Origin: an uncultured Poribacteria bacterium | Lineage (GTDB): Bacteria > Poribacteria > WGA-4E > WGA-3G | Length of the DNA stretch: 64,000 nucleotides | Reading direction: 5' to 3' | Assembly: GCA_951828515.1 (NCBI GenBank) | Contig: OX639992.1 | Coordinates: 3,822,217 to 3,886,216, forward strand | In this document: one piece after another, positions 8,765 through 37,893 of the stretch | How positions within the stretch are numbered: position 1 is the stretch's first letter | Layout of the letters: each line of letters opens with the position of its first letter | The notes under the pieces: generated by a model | What the model was told of the DNA's origin: nothing | The model's database searches: none | What the model saw: only the letters and a program-made list of their open reading frames with translations | Translations under genes and position numbers: made by a program

Positions 8765-10831
8765 ATGTCAAATTTGGAACCCGCGTTATTCATCCGCAAG
8801 GTAAAATTAAAAATGTGCTTAATCGTTTTACTGGCTATCAGCAATGTAGTTATAGGTAGTCAGCCGTCGGAAACTGTCAGCGAGAGGGTTTTGTCAGACG
8901 AGAACCTCTTAACCGAAAACCGAGAGCCGAAAGCCGGGAACCGCTCTTCAGAAACGGTAAGCATTACACAGAATGAAAAAGCGGGTTTAGAAGATGAACC
9001 GAGCATTGTACGCAGTCTCGTGATTGATGGAAACGAATCATTCTCTGAGCAGCAAATTCGCGCGTTGATGCGAACAGATGTATGGAGTGTTTACGATGAG
9101 ACCGTCCTGAAGGCAGACCTTGAAGCGGTTACACGTTTTTATCGGGAGAACGGATACCGTTTTGCGCAGGTGGATGAGGAGCAACTCTCTGTGAAGAAAT
9201 TCGCAGATGGTGTGTATCTCGGCATTGAGATTGATGAAGGTCGTGTCGGCAACATCACCGTCACTGGCAATATACAGACAAAAGAAGACGTTATCCGTCG
9301 CGAACTCCTATTTATGAAGGGTGAGGTCTACACAGAAGCAGATAGAGAGGAAAGCGAACAGATTCTCCGGCGTAAGACTTATATTGGTGCCGCAAAGGTT
9401 GACGCGCAATGGGATGAGCGGTCGAAATCAGTTACGATTCACGTGACTATCAGGGAGCTCCTATCCTTTCCACTGGGTGGGGATCTGAACCTAAATAATC
9501 AAAAGAGGTATTGGTTGCTACAGTATCGAGATCCGAACATGTTCGGATCGGGGCAGGGTACCCTGTGGCGTTACGAAAGAATTAGCGAAATAGGTGAAAA
9601 GACACGGAGCCTTGTAAGAGGACGGTATAATAACCCGCGACTGTTTAAGTCGCACTGGCGCTTTGATGGTGAATATATTCAGAAGCGGGAAGGCGATTCC
9701 TTAGTTGTATTGTTAGAGCGTCCTCAATATACACTAAAGAGTCGATGGAGTGCCAGTGTGCGTTTTTCCGAATCGGTTAATCCGATATTCTGGTATGAAA
9801 ACGCAGAGAAAACTGATATATTTGAACAAAATTTACAGGGAACCTATGCGAACGTTCGACGGTATTTCGGGGACAGATACCAACAAAATTATATAGGATT
9901 GTGGACAGCCTCACGGCGTTTGAAATACGTGCCACTTGAAAAATTAAGTACATCCGATGCAATGTTAGAGAACCGAGACATAAAACGGATCGGCTTCACC
10001 TTAGGGAGACAGCGAATTGCCTACCACAAAGCCCGATTCCTCCGACGGATGGGGCAGGAGGAAAATTTTCTCGTCGGTTCTCAATACGCGCTCTCTCTTG
10101 GATACGCTTCACCTTTATACGCCTCAGACCGTTCAGAATCTTATGCAGAATTGGCTTTGGGATCAGGATGGATGAACGGGAATAGGTTCTTCAACCTCAC
10201 AACATTCGCATTTAGCACAAACTTCAGGACTCGGATTGAACGCTCTATCCTCCAAGCACAAACCGCCTGGTTTTATATCGATGTATTCAACACGGGTGAT
10301 ATTTATACACTTGAAACCGGTTTTAGAGAGAACGGTCTCTTCGATTTTCATCAGACGTTTGTCGCTCAGTTTAAAACAGAGATGCAGTTTGGATGGAGTG
10401 GACGCAGTCAGGTTCTCTTGGGGGCATTCGACGGGTTACGCGGCTACGCCTATAGGCAGTTTAGTGGTGAAAAAATGATGTTGTTGAGTCTCGAAAGTCG
10501 AACCATATTCGGTGGAACGGTGTTTCGTAAGGTAGACGAGGCTCTTGCAGCAGTCGCGACGGCTGTGGCGCGTCCATTTAGCGACAGGCGAGTTCATCTC
10601 GGAGTTATGTTGAGTGGCGTTGTATTTGCAGATATTGGATACATCTGGAACGGCAAACACACCTTCAATTTAGCAAGTCCCAAGCGCAGCGTTGGATTTG
10701 GGTTGCGCGGTAGTCTCTCTCAGTTTAGTGGCACAGGCATTCTACGGGTAGAATTCGCTTTCCCACTTGATCCGCCCTTTTCACCATCGTTGAAGCCGCG
10801 GATCTTCTACGGTCAGGAGCGAACCTTTTAA
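8765..10831 (+). CDS. Omp85 (BamA/TamA-like) outer-membrane protein with POTRA domains
   Basis: 688 residues. The signal region IRKVKLKMCLIVLLAISN is partly encoded by repeat A. Residues ~78-240 hold two POTRA-like modules (SLVIDGNESFSEQQIRALMR and NITVTGNIQTKEDVIRREL, each ending in the I/V-x-GN turn). Residues ~245-688 are the beta-barrel, with alternating strands and the C-terminal aromatic Phe expected for outer-membrane insertion (GQERTF). An alternative start is the ATG at 8813, which has AAGG of the repeat as its RBS. Residues ~31-64 come from an in-frame repeat B between signal and first POTRA. Likely role: insertion or secretion of outer-membrane or surface proteins. Confidence 0.88.
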   Translation: MSNLEPALFIRKVKLKMCLIVLLAISNVVIGSQPSETVSERVLSDENLLTENREPKAGNRSSETVSITQNEKAGLEDEPSIVRSLVIDGNESFSEQQIRALMRTDVWSVYDETVLKADLEAVTRFYRENGYRFAQVDEEQLSVKKFADGVYLGIEIDEGRVGNITVTGNIQTKEDVIRRELLFMKGEVYTEADREESEQILRRKTYIGAAKVDAQWDERSKSVTIHVTIRELLSFPLGGDLNLNNQKRYWLLQYRDPNMFGSGQGTLWRYERISEIGEKTRSLVRGRYNNPRLFKSHWRFDGEYIQKREGDSLVVLLERPQYTLKSRWSASVRFSESVNPIFWYENAEKTDIFEQNLQGTYANVRRYFGDRYQQNYIGLWTASRRLKYVPLEKLSTSDAMLENRDIKRIGFTLGRQRIAYHKARFLRRMGQEENFLVGSQYALSLGYASPLYASDRSESYAELALGSGWMNGNRFFNLTTFAFSTNFRTRIERSILQAQTAWFYIDVFNTGDIYTLETGFRENGLFDFHQTFVAQFKTEMQFGWSGRSQVLLGAFDGLRGYAYRQFSGEKMMLLSLESRTIFGGTVFRKVDEALAAVATAVARPFSDRRVHLGVMLSGVVFADIGYIWNGKHTFNLASPKRSVGFGLRGSLSQFSGTGILRVEFAFPLDPPFSPSLKPRIFYGQERTF
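8857..8955 (+). repeat. Repeat B inside the Omp85 coding region
   Basis: AGTCAGCCGTCGGAAACTGTC and its complementary arm CCGAAAGCCGGGAACCG with the central GAGAGG / CCTCTT pair. It encodes a polar linker just after the signal peptide and preserves the frame. Confidence 0.6.
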
Positions 10832-20914: not shown

Positions 20915-23900
20915 TCAACTACCAGAATCAGAAGTAGGTTTCCACCACGGTGCAATTCGAGGAGTCGAACCTGCTGGAAGTTTCTCACCTCGGCAATATT
21001 CACGAAGTTTTCTCCCAAAAACTTCAATATTGCGTTTCGCTTGTGTGGAGTCTCCCCATCGATACCAAAACCGATAGACTAAAGCAAGAAGTTTGGGATC
21101 AACTTCCTGCGACTCCGCATACAGTCCTTCTTGCTTTTCGATTTGCTCATGCCACCATAGAGCAATCGGTGACAGTGCGGGCTTTATTTGCTCAAAAACA
21201 GCGGAAATTCGGAACGGATCGCGCGTCTGTAAGGCTTTCCGATAGACTTCCTGGCAACTCTGTTCCTGTTGTGCCACTTCATAAGCCCAAGTAGCGTGTT
21301 CGCGCACCCATCGACTTTGATCATCTGATTTCAATCGTTTTAGTTCGTTTATAGCATCGCATGACCCAAACCACGGCAAAATCGAAACCCCCAGATTGCG
21401 TTCCTTTGCGTAATGGCTTTCCAAATATTCGTCTTTTACTAAACTCCATAATTCATCCCGACCGCCCTCAGCTAAAGCGGCAAGTGTCATGAACATAATT
21501 TCTTCATCGTTTAGGCATTCCTCGAAAAGTTCACGTCTGAATTGACGATGTTCAGGCGCGTTACAATACTCAACTTTCCAGAGTTGAGCGAGAGAAGTTT
21601 CTACGCCGTAGTATGTTCGATAAACTATTTTGAAACTTTCAGAGTTCCATTGGTGATAGTGTCGTTTCGCTTTATCAGGTTGGAAGCGTAACAACAAACA
21701 ACGGATATCATCTGTGAAGTGCGACAATTCTTGACTGTACCGTGGAAACTTGGAAAGTTCGTTGAGATATTCTTCCGCTAATTGCAAGAAATCGGTAGTG
21801 TTCTGTTCTGCCCAAATCCGAAGAACTTCTCGGTTAACCTCGAACCGTCTCTTTTCAACGGAATTAGAATCTTCCGCAGTACCTTGAAGAATCGAACACA
21901 TCCGAGTGATAAGTTCTCTGCTCCACCTCGACAGATCATCACTTCGATCTGGTGAGCAGAGAAAGGATCCCACAATTTCTGGTGGTACCAATGGGACGAG
22001 TGTCTCATAGGACGGAACATCTTTACCTTCATAAATAGGAACTATCGACCTTCTGCTATTCTCGTGAAAAAGATGTTTTCTTATTTCCTTACTATTCAGA
22101 ATTTCATCCAAGAACCGTTTGGGATCTGATAATGCTGACAACATCAATACGAACGTTCCAGTAGTCAAATCAGACTTCCTCAGCTTTAACTCTTTCAACA
22201 CCCATGTTACTAACTCCTCATCAGTTTGAGTTCCAAAGGCATAAAGGACCCTCCAATACTCTTGCTCTGGCAATTTTTCCGACCCTTCGTTAGACATAGA
22301 CTGATCGTCAGCTGTCCCGAGGTCAAGTGTTTCCAACTTTTGTCGTGCCAACTCTACAATTGATTTCGGTAACAACTGCTCAAGCAAATATGGTAGCGAC
22401 TCATAACAAATTGACCCTCTAAGCAGTTCATATAATGCCAGAAATTCAAACCAGTCCGTCAATACTTCTTCAGAGGCAAAAAAAAGAAGGGTTTCTGTCA
22501 GTAAGGAAGTCAAATAAACAGCATCAGATGATGAATTGTCTGTTTGAATATCTTGAACGAGACGCTGTTTCATTCCCAAAATTGCTTCCGTAATCTTTTC
22601 ACAGTCTTCGGGTTGAAAAATGAGTCCATGAATTGACGACAACTTGAATTGTGCCCATTTTTGATTCAGTGTGTTGAGTTTAAGACTACAAGCAAGTTCA
22701 GCGTAACTTTTCGGATCATACTTAGCAACCCACGGCAGTAGATTTTCTATACGAAAATCCTCACGTGTCGCACCCACACTCCAACCTAACTTAGCATCCA
22801 CTGATACATCTTGCAAAATCTTCTTGATTTCAACGTGATCCTCATGGTGCAAGTCAGGCAAGTCAGTCCGAACTGCTAAATAGTCGAGTCCGTGGTAATT
22901 ACCATTCGCTATTGGTGAATCACCTATTAGTAAGCGTTCCTGATTACGAATGCGCTCGATAGGTGGCTTAGAACGACGGTTATGTTGCTCAACAAGGGCA
23001 TATGTTTTCTGCTCTTGTTCTGAAAGCGGACGCTGCAACAGTTGTGGTAAATGTTCTTTTTTAAGGCACTCCGCGAGTCCATAAACGCCTCTTAACAAAA
23101 ATGCATCGGTTTGGGCTAATTCTGCTAACCAATGCAGATCACCTAAAACTTCCTTAGTGTATCCCCATCTCATCAACTTGCCAATTTCCTCAAAAAATCG
23201 TGTTCGTCTATTAAGGTTATCGTCAACACTTGCATTACTGTGCAGGATTGCATAACAACGTGCAAGTGTTTTTAGAAATTGACGCTCTGGTCTTTGGGAT
23301 AAAATTGAAAGGGCAGCATTTAACAACCGAAGTTGTATATCATATTTTTTGACAGGAAATTGATGTCCTTCACGCTCAATATAAACGATCTCTTTCAGTG
23401 CACTATCACCGTGTGCTGGAAGAAGCCACTTGATAAGACGTGATGCCAAACGATTAAGATCACCTTTTTTGTTTAACCAAGTTTTCGCCAACGGTGTAAT
23501 GAGGGCATCTTCATAATTTGAGGAATTGTGACGTCTAAATTCCAATTCAACAACTTGTGCATAAGCATCAGAATCTTTCCCTGCCCAAAAGGAGAGTCGA
23601 TCTCTCACTTTCTGCGCATTGTGACTATTGAACCACGCAAGCATCAAACCTGCTCGTTTTTGTGAAAGTTGGTCTTGTGAAATATCAGAATTAGGAGAGA
23701 TTGCTGTGACTTGTAGTGCAACAAATAGTGCCTCACTCCTCATATCTTCTGAAGGGATTGGCTCAAGTTCCTGCTGGAAACGTTCAAATAAATTTTCAAT
23801 ATCACTGAACTTTGTAGAGTCAAAAATATTGGAAAGGTGAACTGCCCAACCGAGTAGGATATGCTCTTTACTCAACCTGGCTTGCCTTTTATGTGCCTTG

Positions 23901-25660
23901 AGTGCAATGCGTTGTTCTTCAAGATCTCTACGAATCTCATGATAATTAGGAAAGCAATCTATAAGTAGTTCCACAGAGGCTTGCGGGGCATCACCAACAT
24001 TGGTCCACTTCGCTTCCTGTGCAAGTTTTGCCAGATCTTCCTGAGCCTCTTCAATATCTTGCCAATCAAATTTTTTCCGGACTTGTGGGTCGGTATGTTT
24101 GATTTTGTAAAGTAAATCTGTCCACAGTACTGTTTCCACAGTCACGTTATCAAATGAATCAAACAACTCGCGTAATCGAATGCACGTTTGAAAATAGCGA
24201 GGAATTTTTGCAATGTCCTTCAACGAATTCGGTAAATTATCAAGTTGTAACCCTTCCTTGTTTAGTGCCTCCTGCAATTCGGTGTTGTTGAAAGTTCCGG
24301 TTGAGACTTTATTGCAGGCATCCCACAAATTGTGTTCAAAATTCTGGTACGCGTCCAGAGGTCTGGTGGTTAAGAAAAAATGGATTCTGTTCTCCAATTG
24401 GTCCCTATGTGTAAAGTATTCATCAAGAATTCGCTTTGCTGCTTCAATTGCCTCCACCTCATTAACACCGTCAAGGACAATGAGGGTTGGATGCCACCAA
24501 ATATTGCGCATTTTAAGTTTCAGTCGTGCGATTTTTCTTTCATCTTGATAACCGGGGATAGTTTCAAGGCAAGCCTGAAGTAAATCATCTAAGGATCTAC
24601 AACCATTCCAACGATTGCTATCCAACCAAAATGTGACAATGTGTTTATCACAGCAGATTGAATTCACGCACTTGGCGGCAAGCCACGATTTTCCCGTGCC
24701 CTCCTCACCTTCAAGATAGCAAACAGGATTTCCCTTAGCACACCACCATTCTTTGATTTTTGATTCTAAGAATTTCCGCTCTGTTGCTTGAGACAAATCA
24801 ATAGAATAATTGAAACGCAGGCTGTGATCTGAATCATAACCAAAACGCTTGAGAAGATACTTTTCAGGGTCTTTTTGAACCCAATTTCGGCTCTGTTGAC
24901 CTTGTTTCAATCGACTCTTAAGTTCCTCTATTTTCTTGGATGTTTGCGGTTTAGCCTTTTCAACCCAATCTGAGAATTCCCGATCAGTGTTTGAAGAGCC
25001 AAAGAATCCACGGATGTCCTTCCAGAAGGTAACACACAACGCTCCGAGGTTTGACAGTTTATCCGTCAGTTCAAGAGTAACAATATCCAAGCCAGTTTTC
25101 TTTTCAACGTCACCTAATCTATTACGTAGCCGATTATTAATAGTACGAGAAGCGGCTAACACGTAGACTTGAAGATTAGGTAATTCTAATTCTGCTTCCT
25201 CAATGTCTCCCAGGATTTCTTTTCGATCAAGAGGTGTTTCGTCGTTGTAGTTCTTGGTTTGAAGCACTATAGTGCGTTCTTCATTTATAGCATCGCCAAT
25301 TGGCTGGTAACCAGATTTTGCAGTCTCAAAACGGGTTTCAAGTAGCAATCCCAGTAATTCAGAAACGAGTTCTTCAAAAGGCTCGCCTTTTTTGCGTCCT
25401 TTGTGGTGTTCGTCCAACGACTGAATGAGTTCTTTTAGTTTTCGCCAACCTTGCTCTACCAAAAGTGCGTCTCTCTGATTAACTGCGTCAGTTTCGTCTG
25501 ACAACAGATCCTGGCGTGATTTGAGATTAACCTGAACTTCTACCTCATGGGTTTCGTCCCAATAATCAGCAAGGCTATGTGTATCCCAAAATTCGCCTAT
25601 CTCCTCTGGTGTTGCATCGGGAGGTGGCATTGGATCTCGTTTTTTATCTTTGTCTGCCAT
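20915..25660 (-). CDS. CopG-antitoxin / PD-(D/E)XK nuclease / STAND NTPase fusion with helical repeats
   Basis: 1581 residues. Residues ~10-48 match a CopG-type antitoxin of type II systems (TPEEIGEFWDTHSLADYWDE and EVEVQVNLKSR). Residues ~90-200 look like a Mrr-type nuclease: FEELVSELLGLLLE, a short D-containing strand, and VLQTKNYN with the Q-x-K of the PD-(D/E)XK core (Lys near 136). The STAND module has Walker A GEEGTGKS (~317-325), Walker B LIVLDGVNEV (~394-402) and HFFLTTRP. Residues ~520-1581 are all-helical, TPR/HEAT-like. Nuclease-STAND-repeats is the Avs plan of phage sensors; an N-terminal antitoxin domain is, to my knowledge, not described there. The ATG (AAGGA upstream) overlaps the end of the toxin frame. 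Confidence 0.85.
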   Translation of the reverse strand: MADKDKKRDPMPPPDATPEEIGEFWDTHSLADYWDETHEVEVQVNLKSRQDLLSDETDAVNQRDALLVEQGWRKLKELIQSLDEHHKGRKKGEPFEELVSELLGLLLETRFETAKSGYQPIGDAINEERTIVLQTKNYNDETPLDRKEILGDIEEAELELPNLQVYVLAASRTINNRLRNRLGDVEKKTGLDIVTLELTDKLSNLGALCVTFWKDIRGFFGSSNTDREFSDWVEKAKPQTSKKIEELKSRLKQGQQSRNWVQKDPEKYLLKRFGYDSDHSLRFNYSIDLSQATERKFLESKIKEWWCAKGNPVCYLEGEEGTGKSWLAAKCVNSICCDKHIVTFWLDSNRWNGCRSLDDLLQACLETIPGYQDERKIARLKLKMRNIWWHPTLIVLDGVNEVEAIEAAKRILDEYFTHRDQLENRIHFFLTTRPLDAYQNFEHNLWDACNKVSTGTFNNTELQEALNKEGLQLDNLPNSLKDIAKIPRYFQTCIRLRELFDSFDNVTVETVLWTDLLYKIKHTDPQVRKKFDWQDIEEAQEDLAKLAQEAKWTNVGDAPQASVELLIDCFPNYHEIRRDLEEQRIALKAHKRQARLSKEHILLGWAVHLSNIFDSTKFSDIENLFERFQQELEPIPSEDMRSEALFVALQVTAISPNSDISQDQLSQKRAGLMLAWFNSHNAQKVRDRLSFWAGKDSDAYAQVVELEFRRHNSSNYEDALITPLAKTWLNKKGDLNRLASRLIKWLLPAHGDSALKEIVYIEREGHQFPVKKYDIQLRLLNAALSILSQRPERQFLKTLARCYAILHSNASVDDNLNRRTRFFEEIGKLMRWGYTKEVLGDLHWLAELAQTDAFLLRGVYGLAECLKKEHLPQLLQRPLSEQEQKTYALVEQHNRRSKPPIERIRNQERLLIGDSPIANGNYHGLDYLAVRTDLPDLHHEDHVEIKKILQDVSVDAKLGWSVGATREDFRIENLLPWVAKYDPKSYAELACSLKLNTLNQKWAQFKLSSIHGLIFQPEDCEKITEAILGMKQRLVQDIQTDNSSSDAVYLTSLLTETLLFFASEEVLTDWFEFLALYELLRGSICYESLPYLLEQLLPKSIVELARQKLETLDLGTADDQSMSNEGSEKLPEQEYWRVLYAFGTQTDEELVTWVLKELKLRKSDLTTGTFVLMLSALSDPKRFLDEILNSKEIRKHLFHENSRRSIVPIYEGKDVPSYETLVPLVPPEIVGSFLCSPDRSDDLSRWSRELITRMCSILQGTAEDSNSVEKRRFEVNREVLRIWAEQNTTDFLQLAEEYLNELSKFPRYSQELSHFTDDIRCLLLRFQPDKAKRHYHQWNSESFKIVYRTYYGVETSLAQLWKVEYCNAPEHRQFRRELFEECLNDEEIMFMTLAALAEGGRDELWSLVKDEYLESHYAKERNLGVSILPWFGSCDAINELKRLKSDDQSRWVREHATWAYEVAQQEQSCQEVYRKALQTRDPFRISAVFEQIKPALSPIALWWHEQIEKQEGLYAESQEVDPKLLALVYRFWYRWGDSTQAKRNIEVFGRKLREYCRGEKLPAGSTPRIAPWWKPTSDSGS

Positions 25661-26415: not shown

Positions 26416-29400
26416 CTACAATGCCGGCAGTTTGTTAACAATATTCACTGTCTCTAAACTGACGGTAATCACTTGTCCAATCAAACGAAGGATATACTCT
26501 GGATCTTCCTCACGATTCGGATCGTTGACGATGCCGCTCCGTTTGTCTACCTTGACGCGATACTGATCCACCACCCACTCCAACGCAGAATGGTTGCCTA
26601 ACCGATAATCAAATACCTCAGCGGGGATGCCCTCTAACGTCAGAAAGTCGTTGTATTTTAGACGCGTCTTGTCTTTGGAGAATTTCATCCGCTCTACAGC
26701 CAAATCCACTTGCATCCCCGGGGTCTCAATCGGATTGAGTTTATCGTATTCGGACTGCGATTCGTAGTTGATGTGGAGATCTGTTAACCGCGCACCTGCC
26801 TTCGCAAATCCCCAGAAGTCTTTGGTAAAAGGAATATGCGGCAAATCGCGCTTGAGGTTCTCCTGATACCGCTCGCGATAATCGGGATGATGCAGGATTC
26901 CGTAGGTATAATGGAAAATATCCCACTTGCTGATAGTGTTATCCGTGTAATGCGTTTGAAACTGTGTCAACGTCCAATCAGTGATGTTTTCGCGGCGATT
27001 TGTGCCGTCTTCATGGTAGGTATAAAAAGGGAAGCATTGTGTTGGTGATCCAAAACCACCTGTCATGACATTCACAGGAATGCAATCACTCATCAAAGAG
27101 GCAAAAGGCCTTTCTGGAGTCATATTGGCACAAATGATCCGGTTCTCCTTTTCCGTTTCTGGTATTGGGAAAATGGAGGGAAATACATAAACACGCTCAT
27201 TCAGCACTCTGTCAAAAAACAGATTTGTTTTTGTAAATGGTCGGTAAAGAGATTCGCGTAGTTTTGATTCAGCAAATTCTGCGAGTTGTCCGCTTCTCAC
27301 TTTGCGTTTTAAACCTTCGCTCCAACTGATTTTCTGCGGATCCGAGTCCACGAAATCATCAAGATTCACTCCTGGTTTGTTTTTTGTTCCCATCCATTCA
27401 AGTGCCTGAGTATTGTAAGATTTTATCATCCGTTGAACATTTTCAGTGAGAGAAATTCGGTTAAAGTTGTAGACCCAGGCATCCCGATTTGTTGATACAC
27501 CGAGGCTGTAGGTTTTGAAAAGAGTTCCCTCCACATCACCCTCACTCGCCTTTACAATCTTATTCCCCATCGGAATGAAGGTGTCAAAGTCAACGTGAAG
27601 TCCCTCCGTGAGCCATGTATGCCGTTTATCAGGTGTTAACTCTTGCCATTCCAGATTCCCGACGTGCTGCTTTTCTTCCAGAAACGCAAAGGTCCGTGTC
27701 TTATTCAAATCCGCAACCTCGTCGTTATAGCGGATTCGCGCAGGAAAACTCCTACCCTCCCGTTTTGATTTCACAAGGATGTTGATGCTCACACCGACCT
27801 GGATGCCGAACACATTGGAATCCCCGGGCTGTCCTTTTCGTACATTCCCTCCCAAGTCAAAAATATAGAGCGTGTCAAACTCCTCGGAAAGATGTTTCCG
27901 CATACCGTCAAACATTTGTCCATCAATAAAACCGTTGTTCGTTATGAATGCTACAATACCCTCGTCGCCAATTTTATCCATTGCCCATCGGAATGCCTTA
28001 ACGTACGGATCATAGAGTTTGTTTTTTGACTGTGCATTAGAGTCCGCAGCAAATGTGTCTCGGATGTGGGCATCAACGCCCGCATGCGGCTTATTTTTGT
28101 TGTTATCGTTCTCGTTACCCTGTCTGGCATTGTAGGGTGGATTTCCGATAACAACGAACATTGGGACCTCTTTCTGTTCCTCAACCCGCAGCGTATTCTC
28201 AGGTGTGAAATAGGTGAACTCTCCGGTTTGGTGGGGCGCGTCCATCAGACCGAATGTATCAAATGTATCCACGAAACAGATATGTGAGAAAGGTTCATAA
28301 TTCCCAGTCTTCTCAAAATAGGCGTGTTCAATGTTCAGACTGGCGATGTAATAAGGGAGTAGCATTACTTCGTTGCAGTGGAGCTCTTCACGGTATTTTT
28401 GCGGCAACCGCCGTCCCTGAATCTCCTGTATGAGTCGGACGATGAAGTTGCCGGTGCCAACAAATGGATCGATAATGTGAACACCCATATTCGACAGTGA
28501 TCGTCCGAATTCGGTCACGAGAACGTGCTCAACGCTTTTCACCATGAAATCGACTATCGGTTGTGGTGTGTAGACGATACCGTGTGTATCGGCAATGTCG
28601 ACAGAGAAGCCTTGAAAGAACTGTTCGTAGACGGTATTTAGAAAAGCCTGTTTCTGTGAGAAATCGGTGATGGTGGCAGCGGTTTTCTCAATCGCAACGT
28701 AGAACGGGTCCAGGGGACGGAGGAACTCGGAACGGCTCGGAGAACGGCGGGTGAGAATCTGGATCACCTTCTCAATTTCTTGGGCGATGATGTTCCTGTT
28801 CGTGAAATCGGGGTTGTCGAAGACGGTGCGGAAGATACGCTCGGTGAGGAGGTGTTGGATAAGCATCTCTTCGATCTGTGCCTCGGTGAGGTTTGAGTCA
28901 ATAGAGGCTCGGCATTGTTGATGGAAATTCCTGAAGGCTTGTTGGAACTGAGGGTTGTCCTGCATTTCGGTCTCAATGCGCTTTGCGACACCGCTCCCTA
29001 ACACCGGAACCTTTTCTTTGAATTCTTCAACGGCAGCATACCAATCAACGATATTTTCTTCCCGATACGCAAAGAAGGTGTTCAACAGATTGATAAGATT
29101 GCTCGGATCTGTGAGGTCTACATCAAGTCGGAGGTGTCCGTTTTGATAGAGATGTGCCTGGGTCGGCGACTGAACGATGATATTTTTAAACGGGTAGCCC
29201 GCCTCCAATTTCTTCCGTGCTTCTGTTGGAAGGTCGTCGTGTGTATCTTTTGCTTCCCAGTGTCCGTGTGGCAGGTCAAATGCGTCAACGATTTCACCAT
29301 CTATCCGGATCCGCCTTTTCTGTGGGGTGTAGCGTGTCTTTTCACAGACAAGAATGAGGTTTGCTTGTCGGCAGTAGTGTTGGAGTAGGTTTTGGAATGC

Positions 29401-29508
29401 GGTTCGGACTGCGCCTTCGTGTTCTGCACCGACTTTTGCGTATTCCGCAAGTTCAGTGTAGTAGTTTTTGATGGGTTTATGTGTTGGCTTGATATTGAGT
29501 GGTGGCAC
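26416..29508 (-). CDS. Type ISP-like single-chain restriction-modification enzyme
   Basis: About 1030 residues. Order: an N-terminal PD-(D/E)XK nuclease-like region with IRIDGEIVDAFDLPHGHWEAKD (Asp70, Glu85, Lys87), helical connector, then an N6-adenine methyltransferase with motif I IIDPFVGTGNF (~346) and motif IV VIGNPPYN (~453), and a long C-terminal part that should recognise DNA. This matches the short form of LlaBIII-type (type ISP) enzymes, which lack the helicase. It would methylate one strand of its site and cleave unmodified DNA. The GTG at 29508 has GGAG 8 bases upstream; a TTG at 29535 is the longer alternative. It stands next to the STAND/toxin genes as a defence island. Confidence 0.88.
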   Translation of the reverse strand: MPPLNIKPTHKPIKNYYTELAEYAKVGAEHEGAVRTAFQNLLQHYCRQANLILVCEKTRYTPQKRRIRIDGEIVDAFDLPHGHWEAKDTHDDLPTEARKKLEAGYPFKNIIVQSPTQAHLYQNGHLRLDVDLTDPSNLINLLNTFFAYREENIVDWYAAVEEFKEKVPVLGSGVAKRIETEMQDNPQFQQAFRNFHQQCRASIDSNLTEAQIEEMLIQHLLTERIFRTVFDNPDFTNRNIIAQEIEKVIQILTRRSPSRSEFLRPLDPFYVAIEKTAATITDFSQKQAFLNTVYEQFFQGFSVDIADTHGIVYTPQPIVDFMVKSVEHVLVTEFGRSLSNMGVHIIDPFVGTGNFIVRLIQEIQGRRLPQKYREELHCNEVMLLPYYIASLNIEHAYFEKTGNYEPFSHICFVDTFDTFGLMDAPHQTGEFTYFTPENTLRVEEQKEVPMFVVIGNPPYNARQGNENDNNKNKPHAGVDAHIRDTFAADSNAQSKNKLYDPYVKAFRWAMDKIGDEGIVAFITNNGFIDGQMFDGMRKHLSEEFDTLYIFDLGGNVRKGQPGDSNVFGIQVGVSINILVKSKREGRSFPARIRYNDEVADLNKTRTFAFLEEKQHVGNLEWQELTPDKRHTWLTEGLHVDFDTFIPMGNKIVKASEGDVEGTLFKTYSLGVSTNRDAWVYNFNRISLTENVQRMIKSYNTQALEWMGTKNKPGVNLDDFVDSDPQKISWSEGLKRKVRSGQLAEFAESKLRESLYRPFTKTNLFFDRVLNERVYVFPSIFPIPETEKENRIICANMTPERPFASLMSDCIPVNVMTGGFGSPTQCFPFYTYHEDGTNRRENITDWTLTQFQTHYTDNTISKWDIFHYTYGILHHPDYRERYQENLKRDLPHIPFTKDFWGFAKAGARLTDLHINYESQSEYDKLNPIETPGMQVDLAVERMKFSKDKTRLKYNDFLTLEGIPAEVFDYRLGNHSALEWVVDQYRVKVDKRSGIVNDPNREEDPEYILRLIGQVITVSLETVNIVNKLPAL

Positions 29509-29555
29509 GACGTTTTCTCCGTGTAGTTTTGTCAATTGAATTGAGGATAATGCTA

Positions 29556-34025: not shown

Positions 34026-37000
34026 TTAAAACATGCGATCCAAACGCAAAATGATACTCGGATTTCGTAAGGAGAAAGATGAATTCAGGGGTTCTGCCAC
34101 CTCAAGCGCAAGACTCCACGGTGAGGGATTCCCGAACGGATCCCAAAAAACGGAGCATCCAATCCCGACAGACGTCTTCAACCGTGTCATAAAGTTTTCA
34201 AAATCAGAAAAGGGGGTATCATCATACCACCATATACTACCTGCATCCAAGAAACAACTGAGTGTCCACCCGAGCACACCATCTTGTTCGTTGGGAATTG
34301 TTTCTTTGATGAGCCGATACTCGAGGTTAAGTAGGAGCCGATTATCCCCGGCGAATACATTAGAATCGTGACCACGCAAGGTATTACCACCCCCAAGGTG
34401 AAGGAGCCGTTGCCTTGGCAAGGGAGCATCAGAAAAATCACCCGCAATCCGAACGTTCAGATGGTGTGAACCGGATATAGGCGTGTAGCGTACCAACTCA
34501 AACCGATAGAAATTGAAGGCGTGGTCCCCACCGAAACCTTGTCCTGCTATCTCAACGGCGAATTGTCCGCGCCATCCACGTCGGGTCCGCTCATTTGCGG
34601 AAAACAGCGTGTGGAAATGTCGTGTGGTAGTCGATCTGTGGTCCCGTGTATCGAACGCATAAACCAGGGAAAGACTTCTCAATTCTCCACGATTAATCCG
34701 TGAGTTTCCCGGCTTGATCAGATTCCGGTTTAAGTAACTCCAATCCGTAGATTTGGAAAGGTTGTCGTGCCTTTCGCCCGTAAATTCCAGTCTAAGATAC
34801 GTCCAATCTGATGGCGCATAGGTTATCCATCCCTGAGACCCCTGACGTTGATAATAATCTTGAAGTGCTGAACCATAATAGGTGGCACTCAGGCTGGCAT
34901 CACCTTGATGTAGATAGAGATTAGAACTGACATCGGTGAGCTTATAGAAACCCCCTCCAAATCTGAGCATCTGCCTCTTAAAAAAACCCTTCTCAATACC
35001 GGCATGGTAGTTCCATATTTTACTCGAAAATCCACGACTTATTGAACCGAAAACCTGTTCTTTACCCGTGAGGTGCGTCGCGAGTGTCCCACCCGCGCCA
35101 AGCATGAGTCCGTGAACACGATTGAATTGAAGGATCGGGAAACCACCGGGTCTCGCGAACGGCTGCTCTTCAATGTCAACAATCATGACATTTTTTCCGC
35201 CTTCACGTTGGACCCGCCAATCCCGAACCGATTTGAAATGCTCACTGTTTTCGCTGAGCACTTTGCGCATACTGTTTATCTTCGATTGACCAAGGGAATG
35301 ATGGTAAATATCCGAGGCTTGTGAATCTTGGTTTCCATCACTGTCCTCGGTCTTTAGATTAAGTGCCGACAACAGTTCCGCCCGCGGGATTCGACTGTTC
35401 CCAGTGAAACGAATTTCGTGCAATGTTCCCTCGTTAATATTAAATTCAAGTACATCATTGACAGATTGATGTGTAACTGTAGCGAATTCATATCCACGAT
35501 TTGAATAAAAATCAGCAATTAATTGTTGCTTCAGTCTAACAGCCGTGGCAGTAAGATAGCCGGATTCTAACTGAAACCATTCCTTGATGAATCGTGAAGG
35601 AAAACTTCTGTTCCCTTCGATCTTAATTTGCTGGGCAAAAAGCACAGGTGCTTCCGTAACTCGGATATGCAAACTGACACTTGGAAGGGAATCGGTTGGA
35701 AGGTTGGAAGAAGGGCGGGTTGGGTGCCCTTCCCCGTCTTCCAGTCTTCCACCCTTCCGCTCTTCCATTCCAGTCTCTTGCTGACCGCTGCCTGCTTCTT
35801 CACCGCCAACATCGACCTGTTGTGTTTCCAAACGCACATCTTGAAACCAACCCTGTTCCTGCAGTTCCGTGATTAGCCAAGAAAGTTGTGGACTGGTGAT
35901 AATGTCTTCAGGCTGAATCGGAAGGGATCGTTGAACGACTTCTGTTGGAATTTTAGTATTACCTTTAATTTCAATAGTCGCAACCCGAACCTTAGTTTCA
36001 GGTGCGAAGCCTTCAGAAGCGGGCGGTGTCGTAACGAATTCCAAAACCCCCATCGCCGGACCATAACGTCCCGAAAGCGCGCCTACATACTCATGTGGCG
36101 AATGGGGCCACCAAGGATACTCGTTATCATAAGTCGGCAGCCAATAACTATATTCCCTGGACTTAGCAGGAATAAGGCTTTTCATATTGCTACTATACAT
36201 TTTACGATGGATGTTAAAAAGCCATCTGCTTTCAACGGGGGATGTCGACTGCGAATCCATCTTAGGAGAAGGTTCCAACATTTTACGCGGGAGCGCGACT
36301 TCAAGACTCCAAAAACTGGTGTTAATTCGGCTGGCAACTTTTGCTTCTGAGTTCCATTTGCTATCCGTTTTGAACGCTGTTTGCATCGTTTTTCGGTTCA
36401 AAGTAACTTGGACATCATGGGGGGCAAACCGGAAACTTGGTTCTCCGGGTGTATTAACACGCTGATCAAAGTACGCGCTAATTGGGTTGATAACGAGATG
36501 GTAGTAAATATCAGTTTTTGGGTCAGGGTCAATCAGAATTTCAATACACTCGTCCTCCCAAATTGGTGAATCATGCTGCGTCTGTGAAACATACGGAAGA
36601 AACGAATCAGATATATAAGCCTTTACACCGACATAGAAATTCTCGGCATCCCACATTAAAAAAGTATCAGTTGAATTGCTTGGGACATCCGTGCCATCTG
36701 GATTTTGGAGCGGAGAGAGCAGAGCAGCTGCTTGCCACACGATTTCAGATAAATTGCCATCAATAGTGGGTGCTTTTGCTATGTGCGGAACAGGTTGCAC
36801 TGAATCCACAAATGGATCCGTTTCAGCGTTTTCGGATGCCTTTCCGCCGGCCGGTGAACTCGGTAGAAGTGAAATTGTATCGGTGGCTTTCAAGCGAAAC
36901 AGCGGTCCGCCATCATTAATAATGGTGAATCCGGTTTCCTCGTCGAGTTGTACGGGTAAATTGACAACAATTTGCTGTTTCTGACTCTCAAGTTCAACAT

Positions 37001-37820
37001 CTGCGCCATAATTTTCAGGGAGTCGTAAACGGATGCTACCGCCTTGTGCGGTTATGTCCATCGGTGCCGCAACTGAGTCAAGTAACACCAATCCAATTGA
37101 ACCGCTTTGGGTCTTTAACTTGTTTTGTCCTTGGGTTAGCAAGATTTGTCCGTCGATGTTGCCGTTGGTCACACTGATGTTATAATTGCCTGAGGTTTCA
37201 CCTAAGTGGATGTTCCCGGTCTCTGTCGAGGCTTCTATCTTTCCACGGATGCGTTGAAGAGATATATCCCCGGTTTTGGTATGAAGTTTGACAGAGACAT
37301 CTGGTGGCGTTTTGATTGTACATTTCAATTGGAATCCATCATACGGGACTGATTGTAACTCTTCCGTATTGGAAGGTGGACTCGGTTTTGTTTCAGAAGA
37401 ATTACTCGGTAGTCGTACCCTCAACTGGAGTGTATCACCGCTTTGTGTCCCTGTGAAGCTGATGTTATCGAGATAGTCGCGAATCAGATCGTCCTGTTCT
37501 GTGTTTGTGGTTTTCCGTGCCTGCTTCTCAAGCGTCACGGTGATAATATCGCCTTCTGTGGCGATCAGTTCGATGTTACCCGATATATTTAGGCTGAGTT
37601 CTATATGATAAACATCTGTGAAACGGAAGGTTTCTGTTGAGGGTGTCCCTAATATCAGTGTCTGCGCTTCGCGCATCGAGTCGTTGGCGGTTGGAAGTGG
37701 TGTACTTCCTTCGCCTTCATGATCCGCTGCGTTTATATGCTGGACAGGTAGATTCAGCGTAAGCATGAAAAAATAAAATAGATATGAATAAGAGAAAATC
37801 GCACGAGATATGGGTAACAT
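34026..37820 (-). CDS. Large envelope protein: adhesin-like, CBM9-like, POTRA and Omp85 barrel fusion
   Basis: About 1264 residues from the ATG at 37820 (AAGGA 11 bases upstream; a TTG at 37874 gives a longer form). After a signal (YLFYFFMLTLNLPVQHINAA), residues ~80-320 are a beta-solenoid of DUF4097 type (ISLQRIRGKIEASTETGNIH). Residues ~343-587 look like a CBM9-type sandwich (APTIDGNLSEIVWQAAALL, FLMWDAENFYVGVKAYISD). From ~605 come three POTRA-like units, then the barrel (DTRDHRSTTTRHFHTLFSA) ending in aromatic Phe. Residues ~675-708 derive from an in-frame repeat C in a POTRA loop. Probably a secretion or surface-anchoring pore with its own sugar-binding passenger; this domain combination is unusual. 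Confidence 0.85.
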   Translation of the reverse strand: MLPISRAIFSYSYLFYFFMLTLNLPVQHINAADHEGEGSTPLPTANDSMREAQTLILGTPSTETFRFTDVYHIELSLNISGNIELIATEGDIITVTLEKQARKTTNTEQDDLIRDYLDNISFTGTQSGDTLQLRVRLPSNSSETKPSPPSNTEELQSVPYDGFQLKCTIKTPPDVSVKLHTKTGDISLQRIRGKIEASTETGNIHLGETSGNYNISVTNGNIDGQILLTQGQNKLKTQSGSIGLVLLDSVAAPMDITAQGGSIRLRLPENYGADVELESQKQQIVVNLPVQLDEETGFTIINDGGPLFRLKATDTISLLPSSPAGGKASENAETDPFVDSVQPVPHIAKAPTIDGNLSEIVWQAAALLSPLQNPDGTDVPSNSTDTFLMWDAENFYVGVKAYISDSFLPYVSQTQHDSPIWEDECIEILIDPDPKTDIYYHLVINPISAYFDQRVNTPGEPSFRFAPHDVQVTLNRKTMQTAFKTDSKWNSEAKVASRINTSFWSLEVALPRKMLEPSPKMDSQSTSPVESRWLFNIHRKMYSSNMKSLIPAKSREYSYWLPTYDNEYPWWPHSPHEYVGALSGRYGPAMGVLEFVTTPPASEGFAPETKVRVATIEIKGNTKIPTEVVQRSLPIQPEDIITSPQLSWLITELQEQGWFQDVRLETQQVDVGGEEAGSGQQETGMEERKGGRLEDGEGHPTRPSSNLPTDSLPSVSLHIRVTEAPVLFAQQIKIEGNRSFPSRFIKEWFQLESGYLTATAVRLKQQLIADFYSNRGYEFATVTHQSVNDVLEFNINEGTLHEIRFTGNSRIPRAELLSALNLKTEDSDGNQDSQASDIYHHSLGQSKINSMRKVLSENSEHFKSVRDWRVQREGGKNVMIVDIEEQPFARPGGFPILQFNRVHGLMLGAGGTLATHLTGKEQVFGSISRGFSSKIWNYHAGIEKGFFKRQMLRFGGGFYKLTDVSSNLYLHQGDASLSATYYGSALQDYYQRQGSQGWITYAPSDWTYLRLEFTGERHDNLSKSTDWSYLNRNLIKPGNSRINRGELRSLSLVYAFDTRDHRSTTTRHFHTLFSANERTRRGWRGQFAVEIAGQGFGGDHAFNFYRFELVRYTPISGSHHLNVRIAGDFSDAPLPRQRLLHLGGGNTLRGHDSNVFAGDNRLLLNLEYRLIKETIPNEQDGVLGWTLSCFLDAGSIWWYDDTPFSDFENFMTRLKTSVGIGCSVFWDPFGNPSPWSLALEVAEPLNSSFSLRNPSIILRLDRMF
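35695..35795 (-). repeat. Repeat C inside the Omp85 fusion gene
   Basis: GGTTGGAAGGTTGGAAGAAGG on the plus strand and CTTCCAGTCTTCCACCCTTCC as the other arm. Read in frame it gives a charged loop (MEERKGGRLEDGEGHPTRP) within the first POTRA. Confidence 0.65.
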
Positions 37821-37893
37821 TCTGGGAAGGTTCCTTTTAATCCAGCATATCTGATTTGCAATATCGGTTTGCAAACCCTAACTACAGAATTGC

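Follow-up and report, generated by a model that had tools for sequence, protein, structure and literature searches.

A gene in a 64,000-nucleotide stretch of DNA from an uncultured Poribacteria bacterium (the window; contig OX639992.1 of assembly GCA_951828515.1, positions 3,822,217 to 3,886,216) encodes a member of the Omp85 superfamily whose β-barrel is preceded, within a single chain, by a DUF4097/Toastrack β-solenoid, a CBM9 β-sandwich and three POTRA domains. The chain is conserved across the phylum and retains the tryptophans that align with the sugar clamp of CBM9. Its minimal unit is the Toastrack plus the barrel, and Toastrack genes are associated with related barrel genes elsewhere. 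The protein may be a periplasmic, glycan-binding Omp85 that acts as a sensor or tether of the envelope; this explanation is favored tentatively, its chance of being right as a whole falling a little short of even.

Domain architecture of the chain

The source genome consists of a single contig of 5.85 Mb. The nearest named records are Candidatus Poribacteria, with 64 to 94% identity, which supports the assignment to this phylum. The minus-strand reading frame is open over positions 34026-37874. The features of the gene, in window positions and from the N to the C terminus of the chain, are as follows.

34026..37820 (-), whole coding sequence, 1264 residues, ATG at 37820, without internal stop
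37725..37820 (-), plausible Sec signal peptide read from the sequence, residues ~1-32, cleavage at about HINA/AD
36846..37628 (-), DUF4097/Toastrack β-solenoid, residues ~65-325, from Pfam and fold match
36003..36800 (-), CBM9 β-sandwich, residues ~341-606, from Pfam, PDB profile and fold match
36558..36560 (-), W421 (SPIWEDE), aligned with clamp Trp71 of TmXyn10A CBM9-2
36108..36110 (-), W571 (PWWPH motif), aligned with clamp Trp175 of TmXyn10A CBM9-2
35805..35987 (-), POTRA 1, residues ~612-672, β-α-α-β in the model
35460..35678 (-), POTRA 2, residues ~715-787, from Pfam POTRA (residues 731-798) and the model
35202..35453 (-), POTRA 3, residues ~790-873, from a second Pfam POTRA stretch and the model
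34029..35195 (-), Omp85 β-barrel, residues ~876-1264, about 16 strands, C-terminal Phe
34641..34655 (-), FDTRD barrel motif, residues 1056-1060, from column conservation
34368..34379 (-), loop-6 LRG(H/Y/F) motif, LRGH here, residues 1148-1151, from column conservation

Pfam matches were judged against curated cut-offs, and the structure was predicted as two overlapping AlphaFold models, of residues 65-690 (32 relatives; mean predicted local distance difference test score, pLDDT, 77.9) and 612-1264 (39 relatives; pLDDT 83.8). The halves were modelled separately, and their relative placement lies outside both models. Both the solenoid and the CBM9 fold were recovered. Together with Pfam and the PDB profile searches, the models confirm the proposal of an earlier note on this DNA that about 580 residues of solenoid and CBM9 open an Omp85 chain. 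The hydrophobic N terminus is also present in relatives, and no lipobox was found in the signal region of this protein.

Residues 73-280 matched PF13349 (DUF4097) over the cut-off (3.5e-6; 27 bits against 22.9). The N-terminal model matched the Toastrack folds of 3pet (Z 12.5), 4ygu (Z 12.2) and 4qrk (Z 12.0), and this right-handed β-solenoid fold together with the Pfam match assigns the region to the Toastrack/DUF4097 family. A Toastrack profile gave no convincing match against PDB sequences, the fold search alone providing one, and the NCBIfam LiaG match was weak (1.4e-8, far below its cut-off). The DUF4097 call of the earlier note held, but its "adhesin-like" is a legacy database name only, for which Toastrack is the current term.

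The CBM9 assignment was obtained by three routes. CBM9_1 (PF06452) matched residues 353-441 over the cut-off (4.5e-6; 27.1 bits against 23.4). A profile built from 21 relatives matched PDB entry 1i82 (CBM9-2) at 4.7e-11; the profile was needed, as a single-sequence PDB search with the region gave a weak match only. The modelled β-sandwich matched 4jpq (Z 19.0), 7nwn (Z 18.7) and 1i82 (Z 17.8), with a root-mean-square deviation (rmsd) of 2.8-3.1 over 179-198 residues. The clamp residues of TmXyn10A CBM9-2 are Trp71 and Trp175 (PMC8280721). W421 and W571 occupy the two aligned positions, the second at low alignment confidence in one alignment and in agreement in the hhalign comparison, and each column is Trp in 28 of 32 relatives. 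The sugar clamp of CBM9 thus appears to be intact, and the ligand residues, on which the earlier note had asked for a check, seem to be kept. The CBM9-DUF5916 paralogues of the same genome do not keep both clamp tryptophans.

The POTRA region scored 7.6e-19 with Pfam POTRA, over the cut-off, and a POTRA match was present in all 32 of the 32 relatives; Pfam POTRA_1 matched residues 612-665 just below its cut-off (3.2e-4). A low-complexity linker (window 35679-35804 (-), residues ~673-714) separates POTRA 1 from POTRA 2; it has low confidence in the model and is short or absent in several relatives. Pfam Omp85 (PF01103) matched residues 1031-1221 over the cut-off (2.8e-8), and the barrel of the C-terminal model resembled those of Sam50, BamA and TamA with Z 20-24 (Sam50 and BamA, Z about 24, rmsd 3.5-4.0 over about 310 residues). 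The barrel motifs were mostly conserved, apart from replacement of the loop-6 Arg by His in 3 of 32 relatives.

A 16-strand PF01103 barrel, the loop-6 and FDxRD motifs and at least one POTRA place the chain in the Omp85/TpsB superfamily, but the definitions of BamA, TpsB and PlpD do not apply to it. It has three POTRAs and scored 78.6 bits with the BamA equivalog model TIGR03303, whose cut-off is 297.15. A separate BamA with five POTRAs is encoded in the same genome (L056), which rules out that the chain is the sole BamA of the organism. With ShlB, the score was 20.1 bits against 22.7; POTRA_2 was not among the Pfam matches, and no TpsA-like gene was found among the neighbor genes examined. 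No patatin match, as in type Vd (PlpD-like) proteins, was obtained, Toastrack and CBM9 being present instead.

Conservation in Poribacteria and the short form

A full-length profile search was applied to 84 Poribacteria genomes and to 302 genomes outside the phylum. The full chain, counted by hand from this search, was found in 73 of the 84, so that the architecture, which the earlier note had suggested looking for in other Poribacteria, is widespread there. One of the 73 chains has a stop at a contig end (G043), and in three further genomes (G012, G037 and G073) the chain is cut by contig ends. Three genomes carry a short form (family f3), and five have no chain (G035, G042, G044, G045 and G055), most of these being incomplete assemblies. 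Two families outside the class align collinearly, over residues 168-1264 with 29% identity (G040) and over residues 78-1224 with 25% identity (G041). The presence of the full chain without an internal stop in nearly all of the 73 genomes, together with the uninterrupted reading frame, rules out two genes joined by a missed stop, which the earlier note had named as a possible refutation.

The f3 proteins are 651-695 residues long; in them the Toastrack leads directly into the barrel, and no POTRA or CBM9 was found by Pfam. In a maximum-likelihood tree of the barrels, f3 nests inside an order-level clade of tripartite proteins (support 98/96), and a grouping of the tripartite rows together without f3 was rejected (approximately unbiased test, p 0.007). 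The simplest explanation is therefore that f3 lost CBM9 and the POTRAs secondarily. This indicates that CBM9 and the POTRAs are dispensable and that the Toastrack and barrel form the conserved core of the protein. The short gene is convergent with the gene for a surface protein of very large size that is repetitive and cadherin-like (L047 6978-11999 (-); L048 2-4759 (+)).

No fixed operon partner was found among the neighbors compared across families f1, f2 and f4. The f1 neighbors (GcvT/YgfZ-like, Usp, TRAP, sugar-isomerase-like and ADK genes) are conserved within f1 only, apart from the GcvT/YgfZ-like gene, which also occurs in f2, and the neighbor genes change in f4.

Related barrels outside the phylum

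In the 302 outside genomes, no match at E <= 1e-30 spanned both the N-terminal half and the barrel, a result that in a sample of this size does not prove absence outside Poribacteria; most matches covered the barrel alone. One fused Toastrack-barrel protein of 934 residues, without CBM9, was found (L091). In front of the nearest outside barrels there is often either a short bactofilin-like solenoid or no large domain at all, and POTRAs are usually missing.

The neighborhoods of 31 related barrel genes were counted in 24 genomes, which together hold about 61 Toastrack genes. A DUF4097/Toastrack gene lay within 5 kb of the barrel gene or was fused to it in eight cases, compared with an expectation of 0.26 (Poisson P 4e-10). 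The eight are not fully independent, as two (G156 and G297) come from one genus; one is a fusion (G227), and in another the Toastrack lies several genes from its barrel (G217). LiaF-type Toastracks adjoin related barrels in further loci. Toastrack genes that are separate elsewhere and fused here argue, by Rosetta-stone logic, that the two are functionally linked.

In one locus (L124 955-10144 (+)), genes for an extracytoplasmic function (ECF) sigma factor, a zf-HC2 protein fused to HEAT repeats, two DUF4097 proteins and a bactofilin-like Omp85 protein follow one another, and the row continues with a Toast_rack_N/LiaF-type gene, a further DUF4097 gene and a CBM9-DUF5916 gene. This locus apparently represents a Lia-type stress system in an outer-membrane form. 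The association with CBM9 by neighborhood is weak there, since these genomes commonly encode DUF5916-CBM9 proteins.

Within the same clade, CBM48/AMPK1_CBM modules precede the barrel, in three copies in L119, in one copy each in L104, L115 and L123, and weakly in L118. The first of these, from another phylum, is a protein of 933 residues with a bactofilin-like region, three CBM48 modules and an Omp85 barrel (L119 2891-5689 (+)); those of L104, L115 and L123 are similar. As several relatives carry CBM48, glycan modules have been recruited repeatedly to this barrel clade, and the CBM9 and CBM48 modules point to a glycan as the ligand.

Possible roles of the chain

Within the Omp85 superfamily, the chain would be a dedicated protein distinct from BamA, with its barrel in the outer membrane and with the three POTRAs, CBM9 and Toastrack extending into the periplasm. 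In the Omp85 proteins that have been studied, the POTRAs are known to lie on the periplasmic side. The Toastrack and CBM9 are probably periplasmic as well, because they lie N-terminal to the POTRAs and because of the precedent of PlpD, whose patatin domain, once thought to be secreted, was assigned a periplasmic location from protease, disulfide and lipidomic data (Hanson et al. 2024, PMC11116518). CBM9 would most likely clamp the end of a glycan, either a peptidoglycan strand or an envelope or capsular polysaccharide. The Toastrack, a fold linked to Lia/Psp envelope stress, may offer a docking surface for envelope partners, as has been proposed in the Psp/Lia literature for cytoplasmic forms at the membrane (PMC11237479); the weak LiaG match agrees with this. 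The whole protein would then be a glycan-responsive tether or a sensor of the state of the outer membrane. Of the two suggestions in the earlier note, a periplasmic glycan-binding anchor appears to be the better one, given the kept clamp tryptophans and the CBM48 modules of related barrels.

Several observations weigh against a periplasmic sensor or tether. The CBM9 model is also matched by 2ivf and 7b04, and CBM9 folds can serve in haem proteins; the pairing of W571 with Trp175 has a low posterior in the 1i82 profile alignment. Within Poribacteria, the gene has neither a sigma factor nor a stress-response operon next to it, and the ECF-sigma operon of L124 is a single example. The Toastrack is placed in the cytoplasm in the PSP paper (PMC11237479), which contains no mention of Omp85, and a role for secreted Toastracks in Gram-negative bacteria is for this reason not established. 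The three POTRAs and the Omp85 motifs would suit an insertase equally well.

That the chain is a specialized insertase or translocase, BamA-like or TamA-like, is possible but doubtful. Its POTRAs would accept a substrate of their own, destined for the outer membrane or for export, and CBM9 and the Toastrack would assist as chaperones or in positioning. The POTRAs, the FDxRD and LRG motifs and the resemblance to Sam50, BamA and TamA are consistent with this, as is the function of most studied Omp85 proteins, but f3 keeps the Toastrack and barrel without any POTRA, which argues against insertion as the common function. The usual lack of POTRAs in the related outside barrels, the low TIGR03303 score (78.6 against 297) and the His in loop 6 of three relatives also disagree with an insertase. 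According to the available part of the survey by Heinz & Lithgow (2014, PMC4104836), BamA-like proteins always occur beside BamA, as is the case here, and have one to three POTRAs and an Omp85 barrel; compared with that subfamily, the present chain has about 580 extra N-terminal residues.

Export of the Toastrack and CBM9 through their own barrel as a built-in surface lectin, in a type Vd-like or single-chain two-partner manner, is quite improbable; a built-in passenger was the second suggestion of the earlier note. In PlpD, the type Vd prototype, the N-terminal domain stays in the periplasm (PMC11116518), and domains N-terminal to periplasm-facing POTRAs would be expected to do likewise. The order passenger-POTRA-barrel would suit such export, as would a CBM9 clamp directed at the extracellular glycans of a sponge symbiont, and the separate β-solenoid genes beside related barrels resemble a TpsA/TpsB pair; but most of those barrels are without POTRAs, f3 has none to capture a passenger, and no TPS domain was found by Pfam. 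A polysaccharide exit or retention device, in which CBM9 would capture a glycan that the barrel helps to anchor or pass, has a similarly small chance: the kept clamp and the repeated recruitment of CBM9 and CBM48 would fit, but no polysaccharide-synthesis neighbors are conserved, f3 lost CBM9, and glycan export is not known for any Omp85.

The favored periplasmic sensor or tether could be part of a wider scheme, in which this Omp85 clade would supply, at the outer membrane, one half of an envelope-stress system of Lia/Psp type in diderms. Toastracks, separate genes in most phyla and fused in Poribacteria, would read the glycan or membrane state at that membrane, CBM9 and CBM48 would be the sensors, and some lineages would report to ECF-sigma/anti-sigma pairs. 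This scheme is rather unlikely as it stands. It is assumed that an Omp85 protein inserts or moves other proteins; PlpD already showed another use of the scaffold. A nearly universal, phylum-wide Omp85 with a lectin clamp and a stress solenoid, versions without POTRAs and independent CBM48 fusions suggest a glycan-handling branch of the superfamily. The Toastrack, so far found chiefly in Lia/Psp systems of the inner membrane, would thereby gain a link to the outer membrane. CBM9 alone, clamp mutants and the natural deletion of f3 are testable constructs.

The earlier note went too far in stating that POTRA domains are normally all that an Omp85 protein has before its barrel, as the ten Omp85/TpsB subfamilies in the available part of PMC4104836 include WD40, patatin, metallo, lipo, BamA-like and no-N-terminus forms. 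Forms with Toastrack or CBM9 are not among the architectures described in that part, and among the papers searched none dealt with Omp85 together with CBM9 or Poribacteria. PlpD and other patatin-Omp85 proteins (PMC11116518) likewise carry an additional globular domain ahead of POTRA and barrel within a single chain and raise the identical question of its location, but PlpD has a phospholipase and one POTRA, whereas this chain has a non-catalytic solenoid, a lectin-like sandwich and three POTRAs. WD40-Omp85 and DUF5686/CarboxypepD_reg-Omp85 proteins share a barrel with a non-POTRA N-terminal domain but differ in the N-terminal folds; there is a weak match of the DUF5686 profile to this barrel clade, and the tree separates the PD40 and DUF5686 forms. 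The LiaG, LiaF and DUF4097 proteins of Lia-Psp systems (PMC11237479) have the Toastrack fold in common with the chain but fused to inner-membrane segments rather than to an outer-membrane barrel. The CBM9 modules of xylanases (TmXyn10A CBM9-2 and CkXyn10C CBM9.3) and of CBM9-DUF5916 proteins, the latter likewise joined to a large C-terminal region, share the fold and aligned clamp aromatics; in this chain, CBM9 is followed by POTRAs and Omp85, without a catalytic module.

Other Omp85 proteins were also observed. The window encodes a second Omp85-like protein (8765-10831 (+), 688 residues) with POTRAs and a weak barrel, which scored 90 bits with TIGR03303, below the cut-off; its gene lies between those of a BatA/VWA protein and a DUF6785/DUF6784 protein. 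Poribacteria also have Omp85 barrels with a DUF4252 N terminus, clear in L003, L050 and L051 and unmatched in L002, which form a separate clade. PD40 (WD40-like propeller) Omp85 proteins were found in L059 and L130, the latter also with Peptidase_MA_2. Adjoining genes in the window encode a 1581-residue NACHT/NPHP3-type ATPase (20915-25660 (-)), for which no match to PADLOC models was obtained, and a 1039-residue Type ISP/IIG restriction-modification enzyme (26416-29535 (-)); the two possibly form a defense island.

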